Assembly: GCA_026388255.1 (NCBI GenBank)
Contig: JAPLKC010000032.1
Coordinates: 1 to 40,506 of the forward strand
Direction of reading: 5' to 3'
Length of the DNA stretch: 40,506 nucleotides
Source of the DNA: Pseudomonadota bacterium
Lineage (GTDB): Bacteria > Desulfobacterota > Syntrophorhabdia > Syntrophorhabdales > Syntrophorhabdaceae
The notes beneath the pieces were generated by a model. It saw only the letters and a program-made list of their open reading frames with translations, was not told where the DNA came from and did not search any database. The position numbers were made by a program, and so were the translations under genes. This document shows, piece by piece, positions 1-10,107 of this stretch. The stretch's first letter is position 1, and each line of letters opens with the position of its first letter.

Positions 1-2949
1 TGTATCATAAAACTCTATGGCGCCATAGGTACAAGCCGTGATACATGCCCCACAGGATATACAATCACTCTCATTTACCTCGGCAACAGAACCGGAGGCA
101 GTAACTGTGTCATGGGAGAGAAGGGTCAAAACCCGGCCTGCCGCTCCATAAGCCTGGTTAATCGTTTCCGATATATGCTTGGGATAGTGGGCTATGCCAC
201 AGAGGTAAATGCCATCGGTGCCAAACTCCACCGGTCTTAATTTGACATGGGCTTCTTTGAACCAATCATCGGGTCCCAAAGAAACCTTGAACAACAAGGA
301 CATTTCCTTGTTTCCGGCCGAGGGAATAACGGCGGCAGCCAAAGAAAGTAAATCAGCATCGATTGCCAGCTTCTTACCTAAAATATAATCGGTCGCCGTA
401 ACCCTGAGCATGCGCCGCCCCTCTTCCTCAACAGCTTCCACCTGCGGTTTATCCTGTGGCTCATAGCGGATGAACTTTACATCTTTATTTGATGCATCCC
501 GGTAATAATCCTCACTAAACCCATAGGTTCGCATATCCCGGAAGAGAATGGTTATATCCATCCGGGGGTTTATCTCTTTCAGTTTTAAGGCGTTCTTTAC
601 AGAGTTGCTGCAACATATCCGGGCGCAGTAATTTCTGTCCTCATTTCTGCAGCCTACGCATTGGATCATCACCAGGCTCTGGGCGTTCATCACCCTTTCT
701 TCTCCTTGGGCGATCTGCTCCTCCAACTCCAGATTGGTCATTACCCTATCATCTTCCCCATAAAGGTATTCGGTGGGTTTATATTCATCAGCACCGATGG
801 CGATGACGGTTGCCCCATGTTTTATCTCGGTGATCCCCCTGTCCGACTTCACTTTGGTGACAAAATTCCCCACATAACCGGTAGCCTCCGGGATCGTGGC
901 ATCCGTATAAACATGGATGAGGGGGTGCTGGTAAATCTTGCGCACAAGATCACGCAAATAGGCCTGAACATCCATCCCGTCCAGCGTGGAATGAATTCTT
1001 CGCGCCGTTCCCCCCAGATCAGTATCCTTTTCCACCAGACAAACCTCATGCCCCTGCTTCGCTATGGAGAGGGCGCACGTCATGCCGGCGATACCGCCGC
1101 CAACCACCAGCGCCGTCCTGTTGACCGGCAGATCAAATTCCTGCAAGGGCTTCAAACGGCAAACTCGCGCTACCGACATCCTGATGATATCCTTTGCCTT
1201 TTGGGTGGCTTCTTCCTTTTCCTTGGCGTGGACCCAGGAACAATGTTCTCTAATATTCGCCATGTCTAAGTAATATTGATTAATTCCCGCCTCCCGCAGG
1301 GTGTCCCGGAATAGCGGTTCAAGGGTCCTGGGGGAGCAGGCGGCAATAACCACGCGATTGAGCCCTTTTTCCTTTGCCAGATCTGATATTTGTTGGGCAG
1401 AATTGGTAGCACAGGAAAATAGCTGTTCCTGAGCGTAGACAACATTGGGCAAAGTTAAGGCATATTCCACTGTGGAAGGAACTCCTACTATCCTGCCGAT
1501 GTTAGCCCCACAATGACACACAAAGACTCCTATTCTTGGCTCCTCTTGGGAAACATCCCTTTCCGGCGGATATATCCTTTCTTTGGACAGCTCTCCTCGC
1601 CGGTAGTCAAGGAGTTCACCACATTGGGAGCCGGCAGCGCTGGCGGTAAAAACCGACTCGGGAATATCTGTAGGACCCTGGAAGGCTCCGCTTACAAAGA
1701 TCCCAGGCCTGGTGGTCTCCATAGGATTGGAAGGAATTGCTTTACAGAATCCGTGAGCATTGAGTTCGATGCCGAACTTGTTTGCCAGGCCCTGCACATC
1801 AGCAGGTGGGTTCAAGCCAACGGATAGTACCACCATATCGAATTCTTCCTCTTTTACTCCTTCGTCGGGTGTAGAATACCGTATGGTGACACTCTTGGTT
1901 TCCGGGTTCTCTTTTACTATGGATACGTAGCTTCTGAAAAATCGAACGCCGGGAAGGTTCTCTGCTCTTTCGTAGAATCGCTCAAAATCCTTGCCATAGG
2001 AACGAATATCGTTATGGAATACCGTACACTCGGCCTCTGCGTCATGTTCTTTTGTCAAAATCACCTGTTTCTGGGTATAGGTGCAGCATACGGCTGAGCA
2101 ATAGCTGTTTTCGCCCGGAGTAACCCGCCTGGAACCGACGCATTGAAGCCAGGCTACTTTATGGGGATGCTTCATGTCGGAAGCACGCAATATCTCGCCC
2201 TGGTATGGCCCGGTGGCGCATAACAGCCGTTCATAGTCCATACTGGTTACCACGTTTACAAATTGTCCGTATCTATATTCCTCCCTCACCTTGGGATCAA
2301 AGGGCTCAAAGCCGGAAGACAGAATGATGGCCCCTACATTTACTTCTACCTTCTCCAGCGTTTGATTGAAATCTATGGCGTTGTTCTTACATGCTCCTTC
2401 GCAAATCCGACATTTCTTCTCTTTAAGGTAAAGACAGCTTTCATCTATATAGGTGACCAGTGGAATTGCCTGAGCGAAGTATACATGGACGGCTTTATTC
2501 TTCGATATTTCCTGATTATATTGATCAGGATATTTGACCGGGCAATACTCTACACAGGTAGTACAACCCGTGCATTTGTCCTCAAGAATATACCTGGGCT
2601 TTTTAATCAGCGTTACGTTAAAATTTCCTGCTTGCCCTTCTACACTGTCAACTTCAGTATAGGTGAGTACCTCTATATTCGGATGCCGGCCGACCTCGAC
2701 CAGTTTCGGTGCGAGTATTCACATGGAGCAGTCATTGGTGGGAAAGGTCTTGTCAAGCTGGGCCATGTGGCCGCCTATGCTCGGCGCCTTTTCAACCAAA
2801 TAAACCTTAAAACCGGCAGTGGCAAGATCAAGAGAGGCCTGAATACCGCTGATCCCTCCACCGACAACCATTACGTCTCCGAAATTGTTGTCTCCAAAAT
2901 TGTTACAAAGTTGTTGAACATTTTCTTTTAGCGATATTACGTTTTCCAT
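1..2949 (-). CDS. bamE: BamE-like double HdrA flavoprotein, selenocysteine-containing, 3' end outside window
   Basis: HdrA-like electron-transfer subunit of a class II benzoyl-CoA reductase complex, cytoplasmic. The frame runs from ATG 2949 (GAGGGAA upstream) to the left edge, about 983 codons, interrupted only by one UGA at 2721-2719 (codon 77). The first module has the FAD motif [10 protein letters not shown] (about residue 28), then PTNDCSM-UGA-ILAPK, where HdrA proteins have a Cys in CSxCILTPK. Two ferredoxin-like Cys clusters ([15 protein letters not shown]) and QCVGSR follow. A second HdrA-like module starts near 1120 with [10 protein letters not shown], has QCVGCRNE, and ends in a ferredoxin motif CISCGAC at the edge. 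Placement after bamB, bamC and bamD points to BamE; a general HdrA is the alternative. Reading UGA as Sec is inference supported by alignment to the Cys and by the hairpin downstream. The C-terminus is not visible. Confidence 0.85.
2686..2721 (-). promoter_or_regulatory. Sec UGA codon with candidate bacterial SECIS hairpin
   Basis: The UGA occupies 2721-2719. By eye, 2703-2698 (CUGGUC) pairs with 2691-2686 (GGCCGG) in six pairs including two G-U, closing the 6-nt loop GAGGUC. The loop starts 22 nt after the UGA and its first base is G, which fits what is known of bacterial SECIS elements (short stem-loop, G early in the loop, roughly 16-37 nt downstream). An alternative hairpin closer to the UGA (CUCG with CGAG) competes with it. 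No folding program was run. Confidence 0.6.
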
Positions 2950-3012: not shown

Positions 3013-3792
3013 TTAATTTGTTGAGCAGCCAAGCCTCTCCTCGTGCGAATACACCGACATGTGACTGCCACGTACCTGACCAACCAGGGTAATGCCCAGA
3101 TCATGAGCAAGCGAAATTGCGCTTCCCGTCGGCGTGTGCCGCGAAACAACAAGCGGGGCCTGCATTCTTGCCGCCTTACGCAACATCTCCGTCGAAACGC
3201 GGCCGGTAGTCAGAATCCATTTATCTCTTGTTGATAGTCCCCTCATCAGACATTCACCTTGTATCTTGTCCAGTGTGTTATGCCGTCCGATATCCTCAGT
3301 CACTACGAGCAGGTTCTTGCCATCGGACAGAGCTGAAGTGTGTACACCGCCGCTATACCGATACAACTCCTCCTGACCATGAAAATCTTTCATCACTGAC
3401 AGTAATTTCTCTGGTGTAGTAACAATATCCGAATCAACTCTCTGCCCATAAGTTGTGAAAGTTGCGCCACCTCCGCACCCGGAGGTAAGCGTCCGCTTAG
3501 TCGGTAATTCAAAATTGGGATTGGAGAGCCTCACATCGACTTCCGATTCCGCGTCACAAATATTCATCATCATCACATCACCCATACCTGAGATGATTCC
3601 CTCTGAGTACAGGAATCCGAGGACAAGGAAATTCAGCTTGGTTGGAGTGCACAGGATACTGACCAGGTGCTGAAGATTGACATAGACAATAAGCTCCTTT
3701 TCGAAAGGTGCGTGGCCATTGGTTCTGACCCATCCAGCCTCGGAAAAGCGATTAAAGACTATATCCGTTGCTACACCTTCTATATCCGACAC
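3013..3792 (-). CDS. fdhD: FdhD-type sulfurtransferase for Mo/W cofactor
   Basis: 259 aa. FdhD proteins carry sulfur from a cysteine desulfurase to the bis-pterin Mo or W cofactor of formate dehydrogenases. Family signs are FLYSEGII (about residues 60-67), TSGCGGG around Cys106, VTEDIGRHNTLDKI and TTGRVSTEML. The classical CxxC motif reads CGGG here, so only the first Cys is present; many FdhD homologues vary at this place. The start is the GTG at 3792-3790, 36 nt after bamD; no better in-frame start is seen. The gene sits between bamD and bamE on the same strand, 63 nt before bamE, so it is likely co-transcribed with the reductase genes. No formate dehydrogenase gene is next to it. Candidate clients are BamB or the molybdoenzyme at 8087. 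Confidence 0.9.
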   Translation of the reverse strand: MSDIEGVATDIVFNRFSEAGWVRTNGHAPFEKELIVYVNLQHLVSILCTPTKLNFLVLGFLYSEGIISGMGDVMMMNICDAESEVDVRLSNPNFELPTKRTLTSGCGGGATFTTYGQRVDSDIVTTPEKLLSVMKDFHGQEELYRYSGGVHTSALSDGKNLLVVTEDIGRHNTLDKIQGECLMRGLSTRDKWILTTGRVSTEMLRKAARMQAPLVVSRHTPTGSAISLAHDLGITLVGQVRGSHMSVYSHEERLGCSTN

Positions 3793-3828: not shown

Positions 3829-4986
3829 CTAAATCACTTCCTGGAGAATCTCTGTAATATCCATAACTTCTATATCACCGGCATGATTCGTGACTAACCT
3901 GCTATCTTCAAGAGCGGTGACGCAATAGGGACAGGCAGTAGCCAGTACTTCGGCCCCAGCCTCGATAGCTTGCTCTATTCTGATGTTGGAGAATCTTTCA
4001 TGCTTTTCTGTTTCCATCCAAATTCTGCCGCCCCCCATTCCGCAACAAAGACTGTCTTCCCGCGCATCAACCATCTCTGTCAGTTCCAAGCCGGGTATCT
4101 TCTTTAAGACTTCTCGGGGTTCGTCATATACGCCATTATGTCGACCCAGGTAACATGGATCATGATATGTGACTTTCTTTGCGAACTCTTTGGTGATTTT
4201 AAGTCTCCCCTCATTGATCAACTCAAATAAATACTGTGAGATATGAACAATCTCAAAGTTGGCTCTGAATTCGGGATACTCGTTTTTGAAGGTATGAAAA
4301 CAATGAGCGGAAGAAGCAACGATCTTCTTCACCCCGTTGTCAACAAAAGTCTTGATATTTTCTCTGGCAAGGCGTTTGAATAATGCCTCGTTTCCCGTTT
4401 TACGCACACTCTCGCCACAGCATAATTCTTTGGAGCCTAATATGCCAAAATCTACCCCTGCCTTTTTGAGGATATTGGCCGTGGCTTGAGATACCTTCTT
4501 TAATCTCGGGTCATAGCTGGGATAGCAGCAGGGAAAATAGAGTATTTCAGTATTCTCATCAAACTCTTTGATGTCCAGATCTTTCGCCCAGTTTGCCCTG
4601 TCATTCGGTTCCTGTCCCCAGGGGTTACCCACACTGGCAATGCTTGTCATTATACCGCGGAGATTGGGGATGCTGGCAGGGACTACACCGTCCGGCACCA
4701 TTATCCTGCGCATAGCCCGTACAATATCTATTGTGTTTACGCCTCTGGGGCAACGCTGAACACAATTACGGCAACTGACGCACATCCATATGTCTTCGGA
4801 TTCAAAAGGGACCACACCCAATTGTGCCTGATGGTTCAGTTTGCGAACAAAATATTTTCTAACACGATTCCAGGGACAGACAGTCTCACATTTACCGCAG
4901 TGATAGCAGAATTTGAAGTCGTCTCCACCTGCTTCTTTTATGCCATCTATTACTATTTTAAAGGGCTCTAAGGGTAAAATCTCCAT
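3829..4986 (-). CDS. bamD: BamD-like HdrD-type iron-sulfur protein
   Basis: 385 aa, cytoplasmic. The N-terminus holds two ferredoxin-type clusters: Cys27, 30, 33, 37 and Cys69, 72, 75, 79. Then come two CCG domains as in HdrB/HdrD: CCYPSYDPR with ELCCGES and a later Cys (SSAHC), and DPCYLGRHNGVYDEPREVL with SLCCGMGGGR and ACPYC. In heterodisulfide reductases the CCG domains bind unusual [4Fe-4S] clusters where electrons meet a thiol substrate; in the Bam complex the HdrD-like subunit is thought to take part in electron transfer. Position between bamC and bamE matches the bamBCDE order known from Geobacter. Start ATG 4986 with AGAGG upstream. A generic (Fe-S)-binding oxidoreductase is the fallback name. 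Confidence 0.88.
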   Translation of the reverse strand: MEILPLEPFKIVIDGIKEAGGDDFKFCYHCGKCETVCPWNRVRKYFVRKLNHQAQLGVVPFESEDIWMCVSCRNCVQRCPRGVNTIDIVRAMRRIMVPDGVVPASIPNLRGIMTSIASVGNPWGQEPNDRANWAKDLDIKEFDENTEILYFPCCYPSYDPRLKKVSQATANILKKAGVDFGILGSKELCCGESVRKTGNEALFKRLARENIKTFVDNGVKKIVASSAHCFHTFKNEYPEFRANFEIVHISQYLFELINEGRLKITKEFAKKVTYHDPCYLGRHNGVYDEPREVLKKIPGLELTEMVDAREDSLCCGMGGGRIWMETEKHERFSNIRIEQAIEAGAEVLATACPYCVTALEDSRLVTNHAGDIEVMDITEILQEVI

Positions 4987-5021: not shown

Positions 5022-5552
5022 TTATTCCTTCTTTGACATCCGGGCAACGGTATCTGCTATGTTCTGCAATCCATATTTGTTTGCCAATGATTCCAATCCT
5101 ATTTCCATGTCTCCCAGTTTCTCTTCTTCTTCAACTTCCTCTTCCCTTTCTTCGCAAATCAGTGCATCATTTAAGCACCACTTAACGCACAAAGGCTCTT
5201 CTTCACCTTCACACATATCACATTTGAGAGGAAGACCGGAATCGGGTTCTTTGAAAGCGTCCCTGGATGGGCAAGAAGCCCTGCAGAAGCCGCACTCGGA
5301 GTATTCCTTCCCGTCAATCACATATTTGTCTCTGCCCATACATTCGGCTGCAGTGTATTCACCCGCGTATACGGGAACATATATGTCTCTTATCGGTTCG
5401 CGAATCATCCGAATCCGGGACCTCGCCGGATTGTTGCTGCTATATTTCGGGTTAGCGTGAAAAGCTGAACAGATTACCTCGCATGCCCGGCAACCATTGC
5501 ATTTATCAAGATCGATCTTGATTGTCTTGACTTTCTTCTTAACCTTGCTCAT
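5022..5552 (-). CDS. bamC: BamC-like ferredoxin subunit of benzoyl-CoA reductase
   Basis: 176 aa polyferredoxin that passes electrons to BamB. Cys18, 21, 24 and 28 (CNGCRACEVIC) form a first [4Fe-4S] motif; further clusters are suggested by CGFCRASCP and by CDMC with CVKWC. The tail (about residues 132-145) is very acidic, a run of Glu broken by Val and Lys. The start ATG 5552 overlaps the end of bamB by 14 nt, so the two are probably translationally coupled; this fits the known BamB-BamC heteromer. Length and Cys spacing match the small FeS partner of AOR-family enzymes generally. The BamC name rests on the strong BamB call. Confidence 0.88.
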   Translation of the reverse strand: MSKVKKKVKTIKIDLDKCNGCRACEVICSAFHANPKYSSNNPARSRIRMIREPIRDIYVPVYAGEYTAAECMGRDKYVIDGKEYSECGFCRASCPSRDAFKEPDSGLPLKCDMCEGEEEPLCVKWCLNDALICEEREEEVEEEEKLGDMEIGLESLANKYGLQNIADTVARMSKKE

Positions 5553-7509
5553 TTTTTATTATACCTCTCTGTTCTAAGTCTTCGGCAACATAATCCATAC
5601 CTAATTTGTGCAAGGACTCTTTGGTGGGAATACCATCGTTATCCCACCCCTTAAACTTGTAATAAGCATCCAGGAGCTTTTCTTCAAGCTCGGGGAATCT
5701 TTTCTTCCAATGATCTTCGGGCGGCTTCTCATCAGCCCTCCTCAAACCTCTTCTCACATTAATGGCTCTGAGCAGATTTCGGTTCCTGTTATATACTTCC
5801 GTCAGCCCGTCTTCATCAATGTCGATTCCCGTTGCTGCTGTGATAAATTTCGGGTAATTGTGCATATGATAGGGAGGCTTCAGAGGAAATGACGACAAGC
5901 CTGCACACACTCCAAGGGCATCATCGATATAGTGCATCTTCTCCTGCCAGTCAACAATATCAACGGACATGTCAACAGTAGGATAATACGGATTTGAATG
6001 TTCTCCACGGAAATCCCAGTCAAGAACAATTTGCTTGAACTTATCATCAGGACATTGTATCCAATCACTTATGAATTCCTGTCTCTCCTCCATGGTCGCA
6101 AAAGGCGCCTGGGGGAACTGCCCTTCAATCTGGGTAATATTTATCTTCTCGCCGGTGGCATACATCAGGAAGTAAACAGGGTTCAGCATGCCAAGCTTAA
6201 GAGGCAACTGTTCATGTTTCTTAATAGTGTTATGGTCAAAGGCTTCCGCGCCTTTGCCGATCTTACGGGCTGCCCAGTAAACGCCGTCAGCCAGAATGTC
6301 TCCAATCCCTTCACGCCGCACAATCCTGTCAAGTAACCAGAAAAATTTCCCTTCGTTATCGGACGGGCACCCTTCAAAGTCTGCTTCGGTTAAGATACCG
6401 GCTTCTCTTAACTCAAAGGCGAAGGCCATGATTTGAGGGGTCGAGAATCCGTCCACTCCATACTCCGTAGCACGTTGAGCGATTCTAAAACCGAAATCCA
6501 GGTCGTCTACAAAAGCCGCCATTGTATAGGTAAGTTTCGTGAAGCATTTCATCATGTAGGTTGAAATTCCCGGGACGGAAATTATTGCACCGCATTTTAT
6601 CGGACAGTTATAACAACTTATTAACCGCGTCCGCACGGTTTCCTGAACGTCCTTCCACCTCTCTTCGACTTCCTTGGTCCAGAAGTCTTTTCTCCGGCTG
6701 CGGGCATTTCCCCAGGAGAAATTTTCCGTGTGCCACTGCTCATCAACGTGCAACATCTCCTGCGGTGACCCAAGCCCCTGTAAAATGGTCATTACGTTCG
6801 GAACCGGATTTTCTCCCCGGAATTTTATATATTTCAGCACGTCGTTGCAGAGCCCGATATATTCATCCGGTCGGGCAAGATTGACGTCCTTTGTTCCACG
6901 AACAACTATCGCCTTTACGCCTTTGTCTCCCATCACAGCGCCCATTCCAAGCCGACTGGAACTGGAGCGACCCTGCTCGATGGAGGCTGTAAAAACCCTA
7001 TTTTCACCGGCAAGACCGATGGCAGCCACCTGGGCGTTCGGCTGGTTCAACTCCTGTTTAATTAGTTCTGAAGTCTGAATAGCGCCCTTACCACGGAGAT
7101 GATTGGCATCACGTATTTCCACCTTGTCATTGTTTATCCATATATAGACAAGATCCGGGGACTTGCCGCGAAGGATGATTTTGTCATAACCGGCATACTT
7201 TAACTCCGGTGCAAAAAATCCTCCCATCATTGAATATCCCATTAACAAAGTCTGGGGAGAATAGCTGGTAACAATGGTACGATTAGCGCCTGGAGCAGGT
7301 GTGCCGCATAAAAGACCGGTGCTGAATATCAGTAGATTATCAGGAGAAAAAGGTTCGGTTTCAGGGGGAACCCTATCCCATAATATCTTGGCGTTAGTAC
7401 CTAAACCCCCAAGATGAAGTTCTGTCAATCTTGGGTCAGTTTCAACTCTCTCAATGTTTCCTCGTGATAGATCAATTTCTAAATTAAACCCTGTCTCTCC
7501 GTACCTCAT
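5539..7509 (-). CDS. bamB: Class II benzoyl-CoA reductase, tungsten catalytic subunit BamB
   Basis: 656 aa, aldehyde:ferredoxin oxidoreductase family. BamB reduces benzoyl-CoA to a cyclic dienoyl-CoA at a tungsten-bis-pterin site, the central step of anaerobic aromatic degradation. Residues remembered from the Geobacter metallireducens structure fall at the same numbers: Glu251, Glu257, His260 (EQWHTENF) and the W ligand Cys322 (MKCFTKL). Cys299, Cys302, Cys306 and Cys535 would bind the [4Fe-4S] cluster. The N-terminus (ETGFNLEIDLSRG, LGGLGTNAK) and IEQGRSSSSRLGMGAVMGDKG (about 177-197) are the usual AOR pterin-binding regions. No signal peptide. ATG 7509 is preceded by AGGGGA, and a sigma-70 promoter lies about 40-70 nt upstream. 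Length equals that of known BamB proteins. I see no broken or missing key residue. Confidence 0.95.
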   Translation of the reverse strand: MRYGETGFNLEIDLSRGNIERVETDPRLTELHLGGLGTNAKILWDRVPPETEPFSPDNLLIFSTGLLCGTPAPGANRTIVTSYSPQTLLMGYSMMGGFFAPELKYAGYDKIILRGKSPDLVYIWINNDKVEIRDANHLRGKGAIQTSELIKQELNQPNAQVAAIGLAGENRVFTASIEQGRSSSSRLGMGAVMGDKGVKAIVVRGTKDVNLARPDEYIGLCNDVLKYIKFRGENPVPNVMTILQGLGSPQEMLHVDEQWHTENFSWGNARSRRKDFWTKEVEERWKDVQETVRTRLISCYNCPIKCGAIISVPGISTYMMKCFTKLTYTMAAFVDDLDFGFRIAQRATEYGVDGFSTPQIMAFAFELREAGILTEADFEGCPSDNEGKFFWLLDRIVRREGIGDILADGVYWAARKIGKGAEAFDHNTIKKHEQLPLKLGMLNPVYFLMYATGEKINITQIEGQFPQAPFATMEERQEFISDWIQCPDDKFKQIVLDWDFRGEHSNPYYPTVDMSVDIVDWQEKMHYIDDALGVCAGLSSFPLKPPYHMHNYPKFITAATGIDIDEDGLTEVYNRNRNLLRAINVRRGLRRADEKPPEDHWKKRFPELEEKLLDAYYKFKGWDNDGIPTKESLHKLGMDYVAEDLEQRGIIKNEQG

Positions 7510-8086: not shown

Positions 8087-10107
8087 ATGGCAGAAAATAT
8101 AAAGAAGGTAATGACAGATTGTACCCTCTGCTATCATAGTTGCGGAACCATTATGACCATTGAAAACGGCAAGGCAGTGAAGGTTGAAGGGTTGCCGTCG
8201 CACCCGCTGAACAAAGGCAGGCTTTGCGAAAAAGGTGAAGCCATGCTTGACAATATCTACGACCCTGACAGACTGAAATACCCGATGAAAAGGGTAAACG
8301 GGAACTGGGATAGGATTTCATGGGATCAGGCCCTGACTGAGATTGCAGAGAAACTCCTGAAACTTAAAAATGAATTCGGCCCGGGTGTACTCGGTGTTTT
8401 CAGCGGCTCTATCGGCGTTGAGAATCTTGAGATGGCGGGGCTGACGCAAAGGGTCAAGGCAGCATTCGGTTCACCCAACTTTTTTTCTGTGGAAAGCATA
8501 TGCTACAGGATGCGTATACGGACAAGGCAGATCACCTTCGGCAAATATCCGACAGAGGAGCTTGATTCAAAACTCTATATCCTGTGGGGACACAACCCTG
8601 AGCAATCCGATTTTCCTCTGAAGCTTGCAATCGATGAAAATCTGGAAAAAGGTGCAAAGCTTGTTGTTGTTGATCCTAAACGCATCGGGCTCGCAGACCG
8701 TGCAGACATGTATTTGAGGATAAGACCGGGTACGGACGGTGCAATGGCCCTTGCCATGATCAATGTGATTGTAAATGAAAAGCTCTGCGATTATGAATTT
8801 ATTGAAAATTATACAACAGGATTCGATGAGCTTGTTCCGCATGTTCAGCAGTATACACCCGAATGGGCAGAGAAGATCACATGGGTGGCTGCCGAAGATA
8901 TCTGCAAACTGGCGCGTCTCTTTGCAACAACAAAAGGCGCGGGCATCTATCAGGGCACCTGCACGCAGGATCAAACGGCAAACGGCACCCAGAACAGCCG
9001 GGCGTTCTCTGTTCTTCAAGCGGCTGGGTTATCAGCCCCAGGCTTCCCCTGGGCAATGTTGGAATGGGCGTTGAAGGCGAACCCCTCGGCGCTGACCAGT
9101 ATCCCCTTTTCTACGAAGTATGGGGAAGAAAAAGCCCTTACGGTGTTGTAACATGCGTGCCGGAGAGTATTCCCGACAAGATAAAAGCCTTCCTTGTGAT
9201 CGGCGGAAACCCCATGCTCTCCATGGCAGATTCAAACGCCTTCAGGGAAGCCTTCAAAAGGCTGGAACTCCTCGTTGTCCATGACCTTTTTATGACCGAG
9301 ACAGCCCGGCTTGCCCATTATGTGCTGCCTGCATGTTCACACCTCGAAAAATGGGGCGTTGCCTATACCTATAATGTATGCCACTGCTTGCCTTATCTCA
9401 TGCTCAGGAAAAAGGCTATTGAACCCTATTATGAAAGCTGGTCGGAATGGAAATTCTTTACCGGACTTGCTAATAAGCTCGGCATAGGCGATAAATTCCC
9501 CTGGAAATCCGAAGAGGAGCTTGTTGCCTTTGAATTGGAGCCGACAGGACTGACGTTTGATGAGCTTCTTTATGAAAAGCCTGAAGGCGCCTTTTATCAG
9601 CAGAAACAATACGGCATCAAAGATGTCCGCTTTGCAACACCGACGAGAAAAATAGAGATATACAGTAAGGCCTTGGCTGATATAGGATTTGATCCTCTCC
9701 CGACTTATCTGGAACCGCACAGAAGCCCCTTGAGTTCTCCCGGACTGCTGGAAAAATATCCATTGATTCTTTCCACCGGCAACAGAAACCTTTATTATAC
9801 GCACGGCCAGTTCAGAAATGTAAAGTCGCTTAAGGAAAAGAATCCTGAACCAATGGCGGAAATAGGGCCGCTGACCGCCGCAAAATACGGGATAGAGGAA
9901 TCCGACGAAGTTATTATTGAAACAAACAGAGGATATGTACGGATGAAGGCCCATGTTGATGAACGGATTGCAGAAGGCGTTTTAATCGTTCCTCACGGGT
10001 GGGCCGGTGAAGCAAATGCAAATCTACTTACGGATACGGAATGCAGGGAGCCCATCATGGGTTATCCTGAGATAAAGTCCCTGCTGTGCTCAATAAGAAA
10101 GGTATGA
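8087..10107 (+). pseudogene. Mo/W-bis-pterin oxidoreductase (DMSO reductase family), frameshifted
   Basis: Two overlapping frames together encode one protein of the formate dehydrogenase/thiosulfate reductase/acetylene hydratase type. The first frame starts at 8087 (354 codons) with Cys12, 15, 19 and 47 for a [4Fe-4S] cluster and Cys139 (ESICYRMRI) as likely metal ligand. The second frame carries GNPMLSMAD, ARLAHYVLPACSHLEKWG and the C-terminal pterin-binding domain, ending at 10107. The switch falls at about 9014-9025: the first frame is right up to SVLQA, the second is right from GWVISPRLPLGN. The family normally has about ten residues between them (a TGN...PGG stretch), so a small deletion not divisible by three is the simplest cause. 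There is no Tat signal, so it would be cytoplasmic. The substrate is not identifiable. A sequencing error is possible. Confidence 0.8.

Follow-up and report, generated by a model that had tools for sequence, protein, structure and literature searches.

A subfamily of FdhD encoded between bamD and bamE in class II benzoyl-CoA reductase operons and its probable role in BamB maturation

Described FdhD systems and the bam operon of the window

The closest described counterparts of the gene analyzed in this study are E. coli FdhD (4pde) and R. capsulatus FdsC. A further set comprises the single-Cys and Cys-less FdhDs ('group III', D. psychrophila 2pw9, M. maripaludis), whose loop contains one or no Cys (SGCGG in 2pw9); in the accessible text of PMC6239281 and PMC10609526 they are described and treated as factors for formate dehydrogenase (FDH), whereas the clade examined here is tied to bam. 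FDH1 of M. extorquens has a tungsten set of MoeA1, MobB and FdhD (PMC13197769, accessible part), and the same kinds of genes precede bamB in one locus of the window's genus (L033); however, FDH1 is a DMSO-reductase-family FDH with W-bis-MGD, whereas the client here would be a member of the aldehyde oxidoreductase (AOR) family with W-bis-MPT. In C. somerae, genes for FdhD and MoeA are located downstream of the AOR-family enzyme WOR41 (class V), and a role of FdhD in its activation was suggested, although this concerns one locus and another AOR clade (PMC13328260, accessible part).

An fdhD gene within a bam cluster has been listed before. In the benzene degrader ORM2a, BamB, C, D, FdhD, E to I and R form one cluster, and FdhD, named 'an FdhD chaperone', was seen by proteomics with 6 spectra (PMC13101534, 2026). 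In a 2018 study (PMC5852087), genes 6 to 2 of a contig are bamB, C, D, 'Sulfur carrier protein FdhD' and bamE, the FdhD row being labelled bamI. Transcript and protein of a bam-cluster FdhD are reported across these two papers, and the accessible text of neither discusses a role for it. Its recurrence, its clade and the split between bam and FDH were not found in the literature searched, which mostly excluded subscription papers.

We analyzed a window of 40,506 nucleotides, the whole stretch of DNA from contig JAPLKC010000032.1 of a Syntrophorhabdaceae genome (GCA_026388255.1, hereafter G000). Its relevant features are:

3013..3792, minus strand: fdhD of the bam-operon subfamily, 259 aa, GTG start (ORF, profile and model matches)
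3475..3477, minus strand: codon of FdhD Cys106 (SGC106GGG), in loop 99-112 of low model confidence
5539..7509, minus strand: bamB, AOR-family W-bis-MPT subunit and likely FdhD client (AFOR_N and AFOR_C)
6544..6546, minus strand: codon of BamB Cys322, protein ligand of W (G. metallireducens BamB numbering, PMC12096430, accessible part)
5022..5552, minus strand: bamC, polyferredoxin subunit (domains and tblastn orthologues)
3829..4986, minus strand: bamD, HdrBC-like with CCG domains (domains; tblastn orthologues)
1..2949, minus strand: HdrA-like bamE, truncated at the window edge (frame and tblastn orthologues)
2719..2721, minus strand: in-frame TGA of bamE, probable selenocysteine at residue 77 (CSM-U-IL)
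8087..10107, plus strand: MoA, a divergent DMSO-reductase-family oxidoreductase, FDH/PhsA-like, in two frames with a frameshift near 9001-9043

The order bamB-bamC-bamD-fdhD-bamE on the minus strand, in one direction, together with a BamB that has Cys322 at the same residue number as the reference (the residue is present in all 129 BamB rows), identifies a class II bam operon. The spacers of 36 bp (bamD-fdhD) and 63 bp (fdhD-bamE) make a single operon likely. BamB is the sole pterin subunit of Bam. Its cofactor type, W-bis-MPT, was taken from G. metallireducens BamB (accessible part of PMC12096430). In addition, G000 contains 12 AOR-family matches to BamB, so several candidate tungsten enzymes may compete for the same cofactor. 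Because of the in-frame TGA, ordinary ORF calling shortens BamE to 76 aa. This codon was TGA in all 24 scored fdhD-bearing bam loci, versus 52 TGA and 25 Cys in loci without fdhD; since tree-independent BamB pairs gave no power (8 pairs, the trait differing in 0-1), we make no claim on a link between selenocysteine and fdhD.

The full-length fdhD between bamD and bamE reported in the first-pass annotation was confirmed by ORF, profiles, fold and gene order. The protein matched PF02634 (FdhD-NarQ; E 1.3e-67, 228 bits, cut-off 27.2) and TIGR00129 (168 bits, cut-off 140.9) and did not reach NF001943 (164.5, below 269). Its AlphaFold (AF2) model had a pLDDT of 85.5 overall and below 50 in loop 99-112. 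The best PDB matches were 2pw9 and 4pde with TM values of 0.76-0.88 (0.77/0.81 to 4pde in Foldseek), indicating an FdhD fold; each remaining match had E >0.001, and the next TM was 0.34 by query. Thus, both profiles, the fold and a Cys at the equivalent loop position are common to this protein and E. coli FdhD/FdsC, and the core residues EDxGRHN, R, S, E and K are conserved in bam-type FdhDs (25 rows) as in the canonical FdhDs surveyed (44 rows; L162, L171, L203, L069 and L212 left out). In contrast with E. coli FdhD/FdsC, the window protein has Gly for the second Cys, is encoded between bamD and bamE in an operon without FDH, and falls into a clade of its own among the treed FdhDs (4pde not being in the tree).

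The loop SGCGGG retains the first Cys of the CxxC motif, Cys106, and has Gly in place of the second. This reduction to CGGG had been pointed out before; there is indeed one Cys only, but CGGG is not remarkable among FdhDs. It carries little weight because FdhDs with a single Cys or none are on record and one study found FDH maturation to proceed without either Cys, although earlier E. coli work reported there found both to be needed; CxxC is not conserved across the family and hence is no membership requirement (PMC6239281, accessible text).

Recurrence and ancestry of fdhD in bam operons

The search for BamB covered G000 with 59 relatives and, separately, 84,980 species, each represented by a single genome; the latter set contributed the best 80 of 562 loci. 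Fetched loci were mapped for BamB-E, FdhD and MoA, and adjacency was counted by script. This survey of bam clusters, which the first-pass annotation had named as a check on its reading, revealed fdhD directly 3' of bamD in at least 28 distinct loci of at least 27 genomes from two phyla (L162, a repeat of L035, left out). The next gene was bamE in 26 of these loci, and L077 and L203 end before bamE. The window's phylum accounted for 23 of the loci (22 genomes, window included); in a survey of 395 genomes of this phylum, which supplied 2 of the loci, 10 genomes had an FdhD near that of the window (E<=1e-75). The other 5 loci were from Bacillota: Peptococcaceae BRH_c8a, Dethiobacter, two Bacillota MAGs and one Syntrophomonadaceae MAG, whose fdhD copy is broken. 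On the other hand, bamD and bamE were adjacent with no fdhD between them in 75 sampled loci (73 distinct, L130 among them; the sample includes the best 80 of 562), including MAGs of Geobacteraceae, Desulfobacteraceae, Chloroflexi and Ramlibacter. Two bam fdhD copies are decaying: L230:4177-4700 is broken into frames, and L069:1667-2464(-) has lost the motif. Both genomes contain another intact FdhD, which in the case of L069 is a second, intact bam FdhD.

Phylogenetic analysis of 72 FdhD rows placed the 25 copies adjoining bamD, together with those of L130 (~1.1 kb after bamE) and L135 (located elsewhere, with moeA- and mobB-like neighbours), in one clade (27 rows, SH-aLRT 96); the repeats L162 and L171, as well as L230, L262, L263 and the second Bacillota FdhDs L264-L267, were left out. 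All CxxC FdhDs in the tree fell outside this clade. The first Cys was kept in 24 of the 27 members and the second was absent in all of them; L061 and L064 have Leu in place of the first Cys, with their other motifs unchanged, and L069 no longer has the motif. Of 11 pairs, 9 yielded a dN/dS value, and these values were 0.05-0.40, which indicates purifying selection, and mean identity was 57% (15 loci).

On the BamB tree, the label 'fdhD present' required 12 changes over 90 scored rows (17 with and 73 without fdhD; 39 of the 129 BamB rows were unscored, mostly because of contig ends, and five second paralogues were left out of the tree). Thus, fdhD either is old in the operon and has been lost many times, or it travels together with parts of the operon. 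No BamB position separated the 17 rows from the 73 (best difference 0.58). FdhD distances correlated with those of BamB, C, D and E (r 0.46-0.68, Mantel p <=0.0075, 15 loci); without three fast-evolving copies, r was 0.51, 0.38, 0.16 and 0.21, respectively, and distance correlation is weak evidence for co-inheritance of FdhD and Bam.

FdhDs of other descent were also observed near bam. Among 74 bam loci without fdhD in the operon, 11 had another FdhD in the fetched flank, compared with 0.45 expected from genome density (the list was made by eye and holds the repeat L041/L165, second-type bam operons whose BamB is ~55% identical, and two loci where bamD was not seen, L215 and L226); here as in the other counts of this study, phylogeny is ignored. 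At least two further FdhD lineages with good support are represented among these 11; FDH, MoA and PhsA-type queries gave no match in any of the 11 loci. Some of these FdhD genes immediately follow bamF (L229) or bamI (L181), and others precede bamB (L167, L219). In L033 (3302-8259), the order is fdhD(CxxC type)-moeA-moeA(PBP)-mobB-bamB-C-D-E. The two moeA genes of this cassette are the only moeA matches of their genome (G001), so the cassette may be general. Of the 139 bam loci fetched, 7 were repeats; 17 of the remaining 132 contained moeA, against a background of ~2 moeA per genome (80 matches, 40 genomes), and linkage of moeA to bam appears wider than that of fdhD near bam outside the D/E site. 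Two moeA matches each were found within the bam loci L059, L066, L067, L072, L074, L076 and L182.

Because fdhD recurs inside bam in two phyla, it probably aids maturation of the BamB tungsten site. Judging from gene content and sequence, we consider it fairly probable that the bam FdhD is a bam-dedicated maturation factor for the BamB tungsten cofactor.

FdhD, bam and formate dehydrogenase across genomes

A different reading is that the gene encodes a general FdhD serving the FDH of the host, which in syntrophic aromatic degradation would let electrons out as formate, and that co-expression with bam is a regulatory convenience. Its core residues are intact, and E. coli FdhD serves three FDHs and is exchangeable between species (PMC6239281, accessible text). 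In our data, the bam FdhD is the sole FdhD in at least 10 genomes with an FDH over the cut-off (G008, G012, G014, G016, G017, G025, G027, G029, G033 and G038) and therefore could serve FDH too; in G019, an FDH is located ~7 kb from the bam-linked FdhD on the same contig. We nevertheless judge this general role unlikely, given how FdhD is distributed.

G000 (98.3% complete) has two FdhDs, one with CGGG on C32 (the window) and one with CGIC on C80, and its selenocysteine-containing (Sec) FDH (874 bits) is on contig C101, apart from the window contig; the genome thus departs from the single-FdhD situation that would have spoken against the first-pass reading. First, among the 59 relatives, FdhD was present in 40 of 44 genomes with bam versus 7 of 15 without (p=0.0008), and within the window's family in 31 of 31 versus 2 of 5 (p=0.0014), phylogeny being ignored in both tests. 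FdhD presence did not track FDH in the same 59 relatives (39 of 48 with FDH over the cut-off versus 8 of 11 without; p=0.68, phylogeny likewise ignored). In this table, G029 was counted as having bam although BamB was not found (bamC-bamD-fdhD-bamE lie on one contig), G012, G025 and G048 were counted from BamB fragments, and G026 was counted as lacking FDH despite two FDH pieces at contig ends; gaps in MAGs can mimic gene absence in such counts. Since loss of bam removes the fdhD inside it, part of the co-occurrence is trivial, and its weight comes from FDH staying behind without FdhD. This is the case in G002, G007 and G010, which keep Sec-FDH and in which neither bam nor FdhD was found; congeners of G002 and G007 (G014 and G016/G022) have bam with fdhD inside, and G010 likewise has congeners with bam and FdhD.

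Second, four genomes (G013, G020, G022 and G207) have no FdhD other than the bam-operon copy, and none of them has an FDH over the cut-off. The molybdopterin enzymes examined in the first three were of the MoA, NuoG, NuoG/GltD and PhsA types; a PF04879 match was present in 59 of 60 genomes, so that complete lack of DMSO-reductase-family enzymes offered no clean test. Finally, a second FdhD occurs in 4 of the 5 Bacillota hosts and in several relatives; it lies 4 kb from FDH in G423 and beside an FDH-like gene just under the cut-off in G426. An FDH-type gene was not found in 29 of the 30 loci with bam-type FdhD, as far as the fetched stretches extend. That FdhD follows bam rather than FDH among the relatives, together with its recurrence, supports assigning the gene to the Bam system, in line with the first-pass reading, rather than viewing it as a random guest.

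Nine genomes have an FDH over the cut-off, each with one in-frame TGA, in which FdhD was not found (G002, G007, G010, G039, G044, G046, G050, G052 and G055). In these genomes, FDH must mature with no help from FdhD, unless the MAG has failed to capture the gene.

Proposed role of the bam FdhD and its meaning

As a bam-dedicated maturation factor, this FdhD subfamily would act as a cofactor chaperone co-expressed with class II benzoyl-CoA reductase. The protein would be a dimer, if it resembles other FdhDs, and would act between the MoeA/MobB steps and apo-BamB: it may bind the late-stage tungsten-pyranopterin cofactor and pass it to apo-BamB, the putative client as the only pterin subunit of Bam. 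It may also adjust the sulfur ligation of the metal via Cys106, which is the weakest step of the scheme; sulfur transfer by this residue is possible and is not required by the data.

Several observations argue against a bam-dedicated role. Most sampled bam operons, including those of Geobacteraceae, have no fdhD between bamD and bamE. BamB is present in G050 (97% complete) and G055 (94%), in which FdhD was not found; the same holds, less surely, for G039 and G052, which have bam. FdhD binds bis-MGD/GDP. The bis-MPT of BamB is without nucleotides; YdhV, a related enzyme with bis-MPT, does not accept bis-MGD (PMC9103625, accessible part), and the core residues common to FdhDs are unchanged in the bam type.

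A more specific version had been suggested in the first pass, namely that FdhD sets a sulfido ligand on BamB. The bam FdhD would then install a terminal S on the W of BamB, giving a working site W(dithiolene)2(Cys)(S/SH) similar to the FDH site; the water seen in the crystal would represent a desulfurated state, and the clade would have shifted from bis-MGD to bis-MPT. This is weaker than the maturation-factor reading, and we regard it as quite unlikely. Leu replaces the Cys in two operon FdhDs and a third has lost the motif; fdhD is absent after bamD in 73 distinct sampled loci versus at least 28 that have it, and BamB rows with and without fdhD are inseparable at any position. The sixth ligand of the BamB W is given as water in a 2025 review (PMC12096430, accessible part), which also weighs against a sulfido ligand.

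The client of FdhD might also be MoA, which is encoded upstream of bamB and perhaps serves the Bam cluster as a subunit for electron output. The first-pass annotation had noted no FDH adjoining the operon; this is strictly true, but it missed the frameshifted FDH/PhsA-like gene, which starts 577 bp from bamB on the opposite strand and whose halves score 203 and 138 bits, far below the FDH cut-off of 666. MoA-like genes recur beside bam, after bamBC in L060 and, in second-type operons, before bamB in L250 and after bamGHI-like genes (named by resemblance to L181) in L249 and L251; they may represent an overlooked subunit through which Bam clusters pass electrons on. Moreover, MoA homologues occur near canonical CxxC FdhDs in L129, L134 and L138. 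However, such a gene was present in only 1 of the 30 fetched stretches with bam-type FdhD, the window itself, where it is frameshifted, and G050 has an unbroken MoA frame with FdhD not found. On the first of these grounds MoA was downgraded as the client, and we consider this possibility highly unlikely.

Finally, a chance insertion that came along when the operon was transferred, and that was not selected for any function in Bam, would fit the 12 changes on the BamB tree, which imply that fdhD was often lost or moved, and the decayed (L069) and broken (L230) copies, but it is barely credible: a single clade keeps its place across two phyla under purifying selection, other FdhD lineages occupy other places of bam loci, and chance placement is excluded by the number of distinct loci and the grouping of all 25 treed copies in one clade.

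In the accessible text of a 2023 review, no enzyme-specific chaperone had been found for AOR-family enzymes (PMC10609526), and none was identified for the bis-MPT enzyme YdhV in 2022 (PMC9103625, accessible part). If the bam-dedicated role is true, this FdhD would fill the chaperone gap for the AOR family and would partly explain how the tungsten site is assembled in an enzyme whose reduction of aromatic rings lies at the edge of the redox potentials accessible to biology. It would also make the sixth ligand of BamB directly amenable to study; if the sulfido reading were true, FdhD would amount to a sulfurating chaperone dedicated to an AOR-family enzyme. The bam-dedicated reading corrects annotations that name the bam fdhD a formate dehydrogenase factor or 'bamI', and the gene could aid heterologous production of class II benzoyl-CoA reductase.
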